This document shows, piece after piece, positions 61,018 through 64,000 of a DNA stretch of 64,000 nucleotides (positions within the stretch are counted from its first letter, which is position 1; every line of letters starts with the position of its first letter). Source of the DNA: Arthrobacter bussei. GTDB taxonomy: Bacteria > Actinomycetota > Actinomycetes > Actinomycetales > Micrococcaceae. The stretch spans positions 1 to 64,000 of the forward strand of contig NZ_VJXX01000007.1 in NCBI RefSeq assembly GCF_009377195.2. Direction: 5' to 3'. The notes below the pieces were generated by a model, which had not been told where the DNA came from, did not search any database, and saw only the letters and a program-made list of their open reading frames with translations. A program made the translations under genes and the position numbers.

Positions 61018-62286
61018 GTGCGTATCCCGACCGCATGCTCGGCAGCAGTGTTCGCCGCCGCCCTCGTCGTCGTCGGAGCTCCCGCCGGTTCCGCCGTCGC
61101 GTACGACGATTCGCGGTCCGTGATCGCCGAGACCCGCGCTGGGAAGCAGGATGTCCGGTTCGCGACCTACAACGCCAGCCTGAACCGAGCGGCAGCCGGC
61201 GACCTCGTCCGCGATCTGAGTACCCCGGCCAATACGCAGGCGAGGGCGATCGCGGAGGTCATCCAGATCAACCGGCCGGACGTCGTGCTCCTGAACGAGT
61301 TCGACTACGTCGCGGGCGGCCGGGCCGCTGATCTCTTCAGTCAGAACTATCTCCGGGTCGGCCAGAACGGCAAGGCCCCGGTCGACTACCCCTACGTGTA
61401 CACGGCACCCTCGAACACCGGTGTGCCCAGCGGGTTCGACCTCAACAACGACGGGCGCGTCGGCGGCGCCGATGACGCACTGGGCTTCGGCACCTTCGAG
61501 GGCCAGTACGGCATGGTGGTGTACTCGAGGTATCCCATCCGCACCGAGGCCGTCAGGACCTTCCAGAACTTCCTGTGGAAGGACATGCCCGGAGCGTTGC
61601 TGCCCGACAACCCGGCGACGGAGGCGGCCGACGACTGGTACTCGACGGATGAACTGGCAGCGCTCCCGCTGTCCAGCAAGTCGCACTGGGACATCCCCGT
61701 CGAGGTCGGCGGCAGGACCGTGCACGTCCTTGCCAGCCACCCGACACCACCGGTGTTCGACGGGCAGGAGGACCGGAACGGCAGGCGCAACAGCGACGAG
61801 ATCCGCTTCTGGTCCGACTACGTGACCGGCGGGCCCGGCGCGTCCTACATCTACGACGACGACGGCGGCACCGGCGGCATGAACCGAGGGGAGCGGTTCG
61901 TCGTCATGGGTGATCAGAACAGCGATCCCCTGGACGGCGATTCACGGCTTGGATCGATCGATCAGCTGCTCGGGAACAAGCTCATCCAGGATCCGCTGCC
62001 GTCGTCGAACGGAGCGGTCGAGGCGTCCGCCCTGCAGGGGGGTGCCAACGCCATGCACCGAGGTGATCCGCGGTTCGACACGGCGGACTTCGAGGACAGG
62101 GATGCCGGCAACATCAGGGCCGACTACGTGCTGCCTTCACGTACGCTCAAGGTGGCGGCTGCGGGGGTGTTCTGGCCCCGGGCAGGCAGTCCGGGTGCGG
62201 AGCTGACGGGGATCTTCCCCTTCCCGACGAGTGATCATCGGCTGGTCTTCGTCGATGTCACGCTCAGCGGTGGCAAGCTGCGCTAG
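61018..62286 (+). CDS. Secreted endonuclease/exonuclease/phosphatase family protein
   Basis: A 422-residue exported protein: signal peptide of about 28 residues ending SAVA, then an EEP (DNase I-like) domain. Motifs are FATYNASLNR, the metal Glu in LNEFDY, GDQNSDPLDGDS and the C-terminal catalytic SDHRLVFVDV. It could be an extracellular nuclease or phosphodiesterase; phosphate scavenging is an attractive guess. GAGGAGGGAC precedes the GTG. Confidence 0.86.
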   Translation: MRIPTACSAAVFAAALVVVGAPAGSAVAYDDSRSVIAETRAGKQDVRFATYNASLNRAAAGDLVRDLSTPANTQARAIAEVIQINRPDVVLLNEFDYVAGGRAADLFSQNYLRVGQNGKAPVDYPYVYTAPSNTGVPSGFDLNNDGRVGGADDALGFGTFEGQYGMVVYSRYPIRTEAVRTFQNFLWKDMPGALLPDNPATEAADDWYSTDELAALPLSSKSHWDIPVEVGGRTVHVLASHPTPPVFDGQEDRNGRRNSDEIRFWSDYVTGGPGASYIYDDDGGTGGMNRGERFVVMGDQNSDPLDGDSRLGSIDQLLGNKLIQDPLPSSNGAVEASALQGGANAMHRGDPRFDTADFEDRDAGNIRADYVLPSRTLKVAAAGVFWPRAGSPGAELTGIFPFPTSDHRLVFVDVTLSGGKLR

Positions 62287-62509
62287 GCCTTGTCCCGTCG
62301 CGCGGGCCGGGTGTACGGTCGAACGCATGAGGACGATTCTTTTTCAGTAGGCGATCCGGCTCCGGCCACGATCCGCGTCATGTGTCGATGACACCCCTCC
62401 ACAGGCGCCCCTGAAATCCGTCCGACCCCCAAGCATCCCCGCAGGAAAGCCTGTCGTGGCGCTGACGTGTCCCGACGCATCTGGTGGCGCCACTCCAGAA
62501 AGGAACACC

Positions 62510-62764
62510 ATGACCAACACGCCCCAGCACGACCCGTCAGCAGACGCTTCAGCCTCCACTTCGGCGGCGGAAGCGGCGGGCCCACCGCCCGCCGAAGCCG
62601 GCGGTGCCCAGCGGCGCAGCGTTCAGGACGATCCGCGGGCCAAGCTCGCGCTCGCCCGGAAGAACCACGCCGCCAGCCCCACCGCGGCGACGGGCGCAGG
62701 TCACCAGAAGGCCGCCAACGAGAGCAGCAAGCAGGGCAAGAAGGAGAAGAAAGTCCGCTGGTGA
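62510..62764 (+). CDS. Small basic-tailed hypothetical protein
   Basis: An 84-residue low-complexity protein: Ala/Ser/Pro-rich N-terminus, DDPRAKLALARKN, and a Lys-rich C-terminus ending KKVRW. The pattern weakly resembles DUF5302 proteins of actinobacteria. AGAAAGGAA precedes the ATG at 62510. The 223-bp gap before it (62287-62509) shows nothing else beyond AT-rich TTCTTTTTC near 62335-62345. Confidence 0.55.
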   Translation: MTNTPQHDPSADASASTSAAEAAGPPPAEAGGAQRRSVQDDPRAKLALARKNHAASPTAATGAGHQKAANESSKQGKKEKKVRW

Positions 62765-62813
62765 GGCCCTGCCCGGGCACGCCGCCGGGCGGCTCACGCT
62801 GAGTTGAAGTGGA

Positions 62814-62862
62814 GCTGGCTCCGAGTTCTGCGTATGGGGGAATCGCAGAAATCGGAGCCAGC
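62814..62862. promoter_or_regulatory. 19-bp inverted repeat upstream of a tandem-HTH gene
   Basis: GCTGGCTCCGAGTTCTGCG (62814-62832) and CGCAGAAATCGGAGCCAGC (62844-62862) match at 18 of 19 positions around an 11-nt spacer. A TATACT -10 candidate follows at 62871-62876. Likely an operator for the downstream regulator or a strong RNA hairpin. Confidence 0.6.
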
Positions 62863-62913
62863 GATCTCAGTATACTTCGACAGGAGACCGCAAAGTCCAA
62901 TCGAAAGGTGATG

Positions 62914-63648
62914 ATGGCCGTCACAGCCAAGGCCTTCCAGCTGTGGCGTTCCCGTATCGCACCGCAGGACACCGTCTCGGACGTGTGCAGGGTAGCCGGG
63001 ATCAAGCGTTCCACTCTCGCCCAGCAGCTCGTCCGGGGCAAGGTCTCCGTCCCCACGATCGTCTCGATCGCACGGGGCTACGGCCTTCCACCCGTCGAAT
63101 CGCTGGCCGTCTTCGAGGGGTTCGCCGACGTTCCGGCCGGGGTCCGCACCCCCACGGACGCCGAACTCGTGAGCCAGGTCTCGCACATCGACATCCTCCG
63201 GCTGCTGGTGGCGCGCAGCGAGGACCAGGAATGCGCGGGGAGCGACCTGCAGCTGAACCTCGCCCCCTTCCCGCACAGGAATTCCGTCCGCGCGTGGATC
63301 GAGGCGATCGACCCGGGGGACCTCCGGCAACAGCTGGCCGCGCGCACGGGGGTCGCCCGGCAGAATCTGTCCGCGCAGCTCACGGCGGGGCGTCTGGCGC
63401 CCGAGATCGCGGTCGAAGCTGCGCGGATCGCCGGGGTGTCGCTGGCCAGCGGCCTGGTGGTCACGGGCCTCCTGACGCCTGACGAGGGCGGCTGGCCCCT
63501 GGACGGCAGGGCGAGAGCCCTCTGCGCCATGCCCGATCTCGATCTCGTGTTCCTCGCCCGGGACCGCCTCGACGTGCTCGGCAAGCAGATCCGCAGGGCC
63601 GAGCTCGACGACGGCAAGGACCGCGCCATGTGGGAGAACCTCGGATGA
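62914..63648 (+). CDS. Regulator with two XRE-like HTH domains
   Basis: A 244-residue protein with two HTH-like units of about 55 residues: 7-60 (VSDVCRVAGIKRSTLAQQLVRG) and 124-178 (LRQQLAARTGVARQNLSAQLTAG). Both have the helix spacing of Cro/CI-type domains and a similar tail (VSIARGYGL and EAARIAGVS). The C-terminus is charged. Start ambiguous between adjacent ATGs at 62911 and 62914; GAAAGG favours the latter. Its stop overlaps the ATG of a membrane protein gene, so both are co-translated. Confidence 0.65.
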   Translation: MAVTAKAFQLWRSRIAPQDTVSDVCRVAGIKRSTLAQQLVRGKVSVPTIVSIARGYGLPPVESLAVFEGFADVPAGVRTPTDAELVSQVSHIDILRLLVARSEDQECAGSDLQLNLAPFPHRNSVRAWIEAIDPGDLRQQLAARTGVARQNLSAQLTAGRLAPEIAVEAARIAGVSLASGLVVTGLLTPDEGGWPLDGRARALCAMPDLDLVFLARDRLDVLGKQIRRAELDDGKDRAMWENLG

Positions 63649-64000
63649 ACAACCTGGCGATCCAGTGGCTGGTTCTCGCGCTCTGCGCGCTCGGCGCCGT
63701 CGTCCGGCTTCCCGGCGTCCTCCAGGGGAGGGGCAGGGTGGTCTTCACTGCTCTGGTCCTCCTCACGGTTGCCGTCGGACTCTCGCTCGATGCGATCTAC
63801 CTCGCCGTGGACCCGGTCCTGGGCGGTGTGAACGTGGCCAACCTGCTGCTCCGTGGGTGCCTGTACGCCGTGTTCCTGCTCCTGGGCCTCCGCATGGCTG
63901 CGGCCTTCGACTCCCGTCTGGCGAGCCGACTGGTCGCGGGACCCTTCGGTATCGCCGTGCTGGCCGTGACCGTCTTGGCGACGCTGTACTTCTTCCTCGC
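63645..64000 (+). CDS. Membrane protein (3' end beyond the window)
   Basis: The first 118 residues contain four hydrophobic helices (about 5-22, 33-52, 63-83 and 96-118) with short loops: MNNLAIQWLVLALC, VVFTALVLLTVAVGLSL, LLLRGCLYAVFLLLGL, FGIAVLAVTVLATLYFFL. It starts in an ATGA overlap with the tandem-HTH gene. The arrangement recalls XRE regulator plus MAB_1171c-type membrane proteins of actinobacteria, but the family cannot be confirmed from this fragment. Confidence 0.7.
   Translation, partial: MNNLAIQWLVLALCALGAVVRLPGVLQGRGRVVFTALVLLTVAVGLSLDAIYLAVDPVLGGVNVANLLLRGCLYAVFLLLGLRMAAAFDSRLASRLVAGPFGIAVLAVTVLATLYFFL

Follow-up and report, generated by a model that had tools for sequence, protein, structure and literature searches.

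A probable minus-strand small RNA gene with a C-rich loop next to a tandem-HTH regulator and membrane protein pair in Arthrobacter

The 19-bp inverted repeat in front of a gene for a tandem-HTH regulator is very probably the gene of a small RNA (sRNA) with a C5/C6 loop on the minus strand. As judged from the comparison of related sequences, the repeat behaves as an RNA hairpin and not as an operator: its arms vary in pairs and the spacer is its most conserved part. The element, of about 60 nt, would be a single-hairpin analogue of the 6C/B11 RNA without an Rfam match. The best explanation of the whole locus, which we consider probable, is a minus-strand sRNA whose C-loop blocks translation of the mRNA of an ABC-transporter ATPase, with the regulator/membrane protein pair encoded beside it.

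Inverted repeat and predicted hairpin

The analyzed stretch of DNA, in the following called the window, comprises bases 1-64000 of a 118-kb contig from a 3.63-Mb genome. The closest named relatives belong to Arthrobacter, and the regulator of Leaf234 is 96% identical. The repeat (62814-62832/62844-62862) has the 18 of 19 matched positions given in the initial annotation, i.e., two arms of 19 nt that are 95% complementary and an 11-nt spacer. Folded as minus-strand RNA it reaches -34.2 kcal/mol, which was equalled by none of 200 shuffled sequences (mean -11.6, sd 2.4, z -9.3). The coordinates of all features are collected in Table 1.

The hairpin is located upstream of the regulator in 37 of the 38 genomes of the genus, which excludes chance; the remaining genome (G027) is a 68%-complete assembly in which the regulator is present. 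The loop, TATGGGGGAAT on the plus strand, is identical in the 37 genomes except for one base in G004, and TTGGGGGGT-like loops are found in several other genera. Outside the genus the hairpin could be detected at eight of the ten closest regulator orthologues (it is missing at L064 and L066) and at none of 19 more distant regulator loci.

Covariation was analyzed in an alignment made without structure (A1), which contains 25 of the 45 regulator loci with a hairpin, near-identical rows of the genus being omitted. In total, 16 of the 19 pairs vary on both sides, and 89.7% of the cells are paired, compared with 77.8% after shuffling. Changes on both sides amount to 59 cells versus 15.5 in the shuffles, and controls with slid arms resulted in 3-17 cells and 2-5 pairs. 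Among the 36 matches of a second covariance model, 16 of 16 pairs covary; this alignment is fitted to the model and includes training members and one wrong-strand match.

Two reading frames precede the hairpin. An endonuclease/exonuclease/phosphatase family protein (PF03372) is encoded at 61018-62286, and a short charged ORF ending in KKEKKVRW is located just upstream of the hairpin (62509-62764). Sequences similar to the latter occur in many members of the genus, and profile searches found no family for it.

Table 1. Features of the predicted sRNA locus in window coordinates
Feature	Position	Strand	Basis
Predicted small RNA gene, ~60 nt; one hairpin and a short 3' tail, 5' end near 62862-62864	62802..62864	-	covariation, fold z -9.3, -10 box 6 nt upstream; exact ends predicted
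Hairpin: 19-bp stem with one mismatch, 11-nt loop	62814..62862	-	repeat search, covariation, fold
Loop AUUCCCCCAUA (plus strand TATGGGGGAAT), proposed pairing region	62833..62843	-	conservation; exact complement in ABC ATPase
Putative -10 element TATACT of the sRNA, within palindrome AGTATACT (62869-62876)	62869..62874	-	TATACT/TATAGT/TATGCT in 25/25
Conserved TTGGAC box (TTTTAC in some other genera), -35-like	62895..62900	-	sequence; role putative
Likely ribosome binding site of the regulator (GAAAGGTG)	62903..62910	+	sequence; putative
Tandem-HTH regulator, 244 aa, long C-terminal helix	62914..63648	+	ORF, homologues, AlphaFold2 model
Membrane protein with seven helices, 240 aa; frame ends at contig position 64367	63645..64000	+	ORF, AlphaFold2 model

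Distribution in the family and relation to the 6C RNA

At E ≤ 1e-3, a covariance model with 24 members has matches in 141 of 295 genomes of the family, which represent 16 of 32 genera; model R1, run at E ≤ 0.1, hit 55 of 147 genomes. Since R1 also picks up plain terminators, both counts include uninspected matches, and among the 141 there are four weak ones with E above 1e-4 (G054, G179, G210, G320) as well as those in genera g6 and g11, which may be 6C itself. Of the matches, 34 were read letter by letter, and all 34 have a loop of C5 or longer. Thirteen extra R1 loci were read as well, and a C-loop was present in six of them (L119, L120, L121, L125, L126, L127) and in none of the other seven. 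Class-wide, 8 of 296 genomes were matched; three of these belong to the same family, and three of the other five have a C-rich loop by eye.

Many genomes contain a second copy of the hairpin apart from the regulator, many genera have regulator-free copies, and at some stand-alone loci two separate copies lie 100-280 nt apart. Among the neighbors common to several genera at 18 stand-alone loci, a short opposite-strand ORF was found at ten, an ORF within 2 kb that we take to be 6-phosphogluconate-dehydrogenase-like at eight, and a presumably IclR-like regulator at five. A motif like GGTAGAACGTCC is located about 30-40 nt upstream of the -10 box at the stand-alone loci L158, L169, L157, L120, L154, and L165 from several genera, where it is a possible activator site. 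At L127 (2555-2640 and just upstream, genome G086) two adjacent C-loop hairpins have a layout intermediate between 6C and the single-hairpin form.

The element resembles the 6C/B11 RNA (RF01066) in being a small actinobacterial RNA whose hairpin loop is a run of C, and in that the loop could pair with a G-rich translation start, here through an exact 11-nt complement. It differs in having one hairpin instead of two with about six C in each loop, and in that its predicted pairing site falls within the coding sequence, at codons 5-8 of an mRNA that looks leaderless. For mycobacteria, PMC10470900 and PMC12395582 describe 6C/B11 loops pairing with G tracts near ribosome binding sites. When C-rich 6C/B11 loops bind G tracts at translation starts, translation is reported to be hindered and decay of the mRNA to be stimulated; in M. 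marinum it is the terminator hairpin whose loop does the pairing (PMC10470900; PMC12395582).

No match to the RF01066 covariance model was obtained in genome G000. The ancestry of the element is a separate question from its function: it could, with a rather low probability, be a true 6C RNA by descent that has lost one of its two hairpins, which is compatible with the sRNA reading. In favor of this, the loop resembles that of hairpin 1 in a 6C family member (GUCCCCCAAU, L097), L127 has two C-loop hairpins in tandem, and 6C (16 of 147 genomes) never shares a genome with a model R1 match, a zero overlap obtained with searches whose stricter filters lose weak matches. Against it, RF01066 had no match at E ≤ 1 in seven hairpin-bearing regulator loci and nine stand-alone loci, sixteen element-bearing loci altogether, and the element is too short for common descent to be tested. 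L127 is the only stand-alone locus read that has two C-loop hairpins side by side, and the regulator loci have one. The mutually exclusive occurrence would fit a replacement of 6C by the single-hairpin C-loop RNA in part of the family.

Among Firmicutes, sRNAs with a C-rich loop such as RsaE target G-rich translation starts with an unpaired C-rich segment; they differ from the C-loop RNA in phylum, sequence and structure. No Rfam family was found for the element at the loci searched, and no description of it was found among the matches listed by a full-text search of one open-access library. Four sRNAs are mentioned for Arthrobacter oxidans KQ11 in PMC6696678, and the C-loop RNA may be identical to one of them.

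Regulator, membrane protein and the operator question

The regulator is present in 54 of 147 related genomes, among them all 38 of the genus. ATG 62914 is the best supported start codon because several relatives have no ATG at 62911. Several claims of the initial annotation could be confirmed at this locus. The second HTH unit it had proposed within the chain appears in the AlphaFold2 model (pLDDT 91.4, pTM 0.85), which has five-helix HTH units at residues 5-64 and 124-183 and a 36-residue C-terminal helix (208-243). The overlap with a gene for a polytopic membrane protein is real: the ATG at 63645 and the TGA of the regulator (63646-63648) share a 4-nt ATGA (63645-63648), and the membrane protein is modelled as a helical protein (pLDDT 93.9), in which seven long helices of membrane type were counted by eye. 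The system does continue beyond the window, the right flank completing the membrane protein frame (63645-64367), and conservation of the regulator/membrane pair together with the repeat was not refuted by the homologue search within the genus.

Relatives within the Micrococcaceae also keep the pair. At 67 homologous loci, a membrane partner was recognized beside the regulator in 56 cases and the ATGA overlap in 48. Inspection of five of the eleven partnerless loci revealed a hydrophobic ORF of about 255 aa in that place at L074, L078, and L084 (by eye), only a 126-aa ORF at L081 and none at L089. The regulator is better kept than its partner (96% versus 71% at L004). Alignments A3 and A4 contain 45 and 39 of the 67 loci, respectively, after removal of near-identical rows and of broken or distant frames (L017, L057, L065, L031, L089). 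There was no regulator match at L088, and 19 loci from named records (L033-L051), many duplicating other genomes, were excluded from the counts. Two regulator/membrane pairs are arranged in tandem at L067 (3001-3753 and 4520-5293, genome G046), with the hairpin found before the first only. L042 (WNZI01000005.1), titled Vibrio cholerae strain 35D, is an Arthrobacter-like sequence with the locus and is probably mislabelled or contaminated.

In the predicted structure, each half of the regulator has the fold of a Cro/CI-like HTH, from which the protein differs in carrying two of them in one chain plus a long C-terminal helix. The halves gave weak profile matches to Pfam HTH_3, HTH_26, and Phage_CI_repr below the curated cut-offs, and searches with Pfam, NCBIfam, and PADLOC resulted in nothing above cut-off for either protein. 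A PDB sequence search found no match for the regulator or the membrane protein. Foldseek had no match at E ≤ 0.001 for either, and therefore no function was assigned to them; the nearest structures (E > 0.001) were single HTH domains for the regulator halves and seven-helix receptors and rhodopsins for the membrane protein, most with TM-scores of about 0.4-0.56. In LytTR regulatory systems, a regulator gene adjoins the gene of a polytopic membrane protein whose product restrains the regulator. The gene arrangement found here is alike, with the difference that the regulator is a tandem Cro/CI-like HTH protein.

It is improbable that the repeat is a DNA operator of this regulator, gripped at both arms by a monomer or dimer and controlling a promoter on the plus strand. 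Such a role would agree with the position of the repeat just ahead of the regulator, with two HTH units facing a near-perfect symmetry and with the palindromic TATACT, which in the genus can be read on the plus strand too; a different dyad upstream of some paralogous regulators also makes dyad binding plausible for the family. The arms, however, are almost completely replaced between relatives while the recognition-helix segments (IKRSTLAQQLVRGK and GVxxQNxSAQL) stay nearly constant, and for this reason the operator reading was set aside, and with it the suggestion of the initial annotation that a two-HTH chain could bind both arms. Furthermore, arm sequence, stem length and arm-to-loop distance all vary between genera, and a fixed operator would hardly tolerate such changes in arms and stem length. 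The conserved part is the spacer and not the arms, L064 and L066 have near-identical helices and no repeat, and stand-alone hairpin copies occur without a regulator. Short of a demonstration of binding, the operator interpretation is best abandoned.

Upstream of the regulator at at least seven paralogous loci (7 of 18 by a crude pattern), a different dyad, TGATGYCA...TTGACATCA or a close variant, was found. In the form TGATGTCAA ... TTGACATCA or variants it occupies the region roughly 94-50 nt ahead of the start of the regulator at L074, L075, L078, L079, L081, L082, and L084. This dyad would be a better operator candidate for the regulator family than the hairpin repeat, and members of the family may well bind dyads elsewhere.

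Promoter, strand and 3' tail

The TATACT that the initial annotation had noted after the repeat is present on the plus strand (62871-62876) inside the palindrome AGTATACT. Its role as a plus-strand box was not supported: a minus-strand TATACT, TATAGT, or TATGCT, readable as a -10 element, is found 6-8 nt before the hairpin in all 25 sequences, and a plus-strand TANNNT hexamer is missing in four of them. A start site set by a -10 element at this distance would place the hairpin at the 5' end of the transcript. Most likely, the TATACT box and the hairpin belong together on the minus strand. The spacer between TTGGAC and the -10 box is 20 nt in the genus, which is longer than usual, and there is no consensus -35 at the usual spacing. 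A scan for sigma-70-type consensus promoters detected none at the repeat on either strand, its sole promoter-like match lying elsewhere, and a terminator scan found none at the repeat on either strand.

Within the stem, G-U wobbles speak for the minus strand at five pairs (5, 10, 13, 16, and 19; six outgroup rows) and for the plus strand at a single one (pair 12; ten genus rows), with further G-U and A-C cells in pairs 1-4 at the stem base. Within the first 12 nt of the tail, the mean T count is 4.8 on the minus strand versus 3.6 on the plus strand; the minus strand is higher in 13 of 25 sequences, with 8 ties. The U-rich tail is weak in the genus, and clear T5 or T6 tails are found in L125, L126, and L062. 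Taken from these sequence features, transcription of the hairpin from the minus strand is likely.

There is little probability that the hairpin is instead a plus-strand 5' leader of the regulator mRNA (with a G5-loop) that serves in attenuation or binds a protein. It does lie 5' of the regulator, the plus-strand fold is equally good (-35.6 kcal/mol versus a shuffled mean of -17.9), and in ten genus rows a single stem pair would become a G-U wobble on that strand. These points are opposed by the minus-strand -10 box of all 25 sequences, by a distance from hairpin to start codon ranging from about 47 to 122 nt and by the stand-alone copies, which are not leaders of a tandem-HTH regulator. A rho-independent terminator only, whose loop has no pairing role, is highly improbable: some stand-alone copies do have a T run at their end (L125, L126), and model R1 gives hits to plain terminators as well (L124, L129), but a terminator would need neither an invariant C5/C6 loop, nor a -10 box at a fixed distance, nor a conserved complementary target, and the tail is weak in the genus.

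Candidate target in an ABC-transporter ATPase mRNA

The exact complement of the 11-nt loop occurs at three sites in genome G000, namely in the sRNA gene itself, in the 23S rRNA (L177) and in an ORF for an ABC-transporter ATPase (L201), where it covers codons 5-8. The ATPase (PF00005) is followed by a permease just above the PF12679 (ABC-2 family) cut-off, and the transporter is probably an ABC-2 exporter. A -10-like box precedes the start codon of the ATPase by only a few bases, and the mRNA is thus probably leaderless. The duplex of loop and site was calculated at -17.8 kcal/mol, and the best of 6396 tiles of the window reached -17.3 kcal/mol.

An orthologue of the ATPase was found in 36 of 38 genomes of the genus, and 34 of these were aligned by codon. 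Of the 34, 33 use GGG at codon 6, 32 use GGA at codon 7 and 31 have both; the remaining orthologues have GGG GGG (two) and GGC GGA (G029, codon 6 GGC). In codon identity these codons rank first and joint second among 71 degenerate columns with an invariant residue. Other glycine columns have 24% GGG and 15% GGA, and their modal codon is never above 26 of 34. The preceding codon varies freely (TAT, TTT, TTC, CAT, AAC, and others), so the constraint is on GGGGGA; GGGGGAAT exactly complements eight bases of the loop. The two orthologues left out are G016, which has a shorter G run and a frame broken at the start, and G027, which has no GGGGGA site in a genome also without the hairpin.

The ATPase was sought in 87 relatives plus 20 selected genomes. 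GGG GGA AT is retained in the two orthologues retrieved from genus g26. The site is absent from the ATPases of g32 (two), g25 (two), g23 (two), and g7 (one), and most of these genera have the RNA. In the one ATPase from g29, GGG GGA stands in a run of glycine codons and is followed by GTC and not by AT. The ATPase target is a feature of the genus and of g26, and the RNA is spread wider. Since the sRNA is present without such an ATPase in G004 and G025, other targets must exist. On the complementarity and codon usage, the loop probably pairs with the ATPase mRNA; GGG GGA could also be kept for another reason at the nucleotide level.

The copy of the 11-mer complement in the 23S rRNA (L177 1501-1511, Rfam match) is also seen by eye in other 23S-like loci; it may be a coincidence or a decoy and is treated here as a coincidence. 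At L059, L068, and L070, a G5-G6 run in the ribosome-binding region of the regulator could pair with the loop of the same genome, which is a lead for feedback.

Proposed mechanism and meaning

From what can be read in the sequence, i.e., the hairpin and its covariation, the -10 box, the conservation of the loop, the target complementarity and the codon constraint, we infer how the element would be transcribed, including strand and length, how its target would be repressed and how the regulator would control the sRNA. RNA polymerase would use the minus-strand TATACT (62874-62869) and transcribe away from the regulator. The transcript would begin at the base of the hairpin and end soon after it, so that the hairpin would present the 11-nt loop AUUCCCCCAUA. 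By analogy with 6C/B11, this loop would base-pair with G-rich messages near their translation starts and block ribosomes, the best-supported candidate being codons 5-8 of the ATPase mRNA with its leaderless-looking start. The sRNA promoter might be under the control of the tandem-HTH regulator, which its seven-helix partner would in turn hold back or activate. Such control is suggested by the conserved divergent adjacency and by the TTGGAC/TTTTAC box upstream of the -10 element, and we would put its chances at somewhat less than even. More tentative still is the joint reading as a membrane-to-RNA cassette, in which the membrane protein would sense an envelope signal and, by releasing or holding the regulator, act on the divergent sRNA, which in turn would silence a leaderless ABC mRNA through pairing within its first codons. 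Equally tentatively, this cassette could be a version of the 6C/B11 sRNA that is under regulation and has taken the place of 6C in some Micrococcaceae.

According to PMC12395582, 5423 predicted B11 sites cover almost all annotated genes, which makes the choice of 6C/B11 targets hard to compute in GC-rich genomes. The repeat is most likely a C-loop sRNA gene that is absent from Rfam, and the case is one of a covarying hairpin that can be mistaken for an operator. In the C-loop family, a short single-loop RNA comes with a conserved neighbor that possibly controls it and with a target site fixed at the codon level. With one loop and such a site, target choice becomes directly testable in soil bacteria that are harmless. 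If it holds true, pairing within codons of a leaderless mRNA would extend the action of such RNAs beyond ribosome binding sites.
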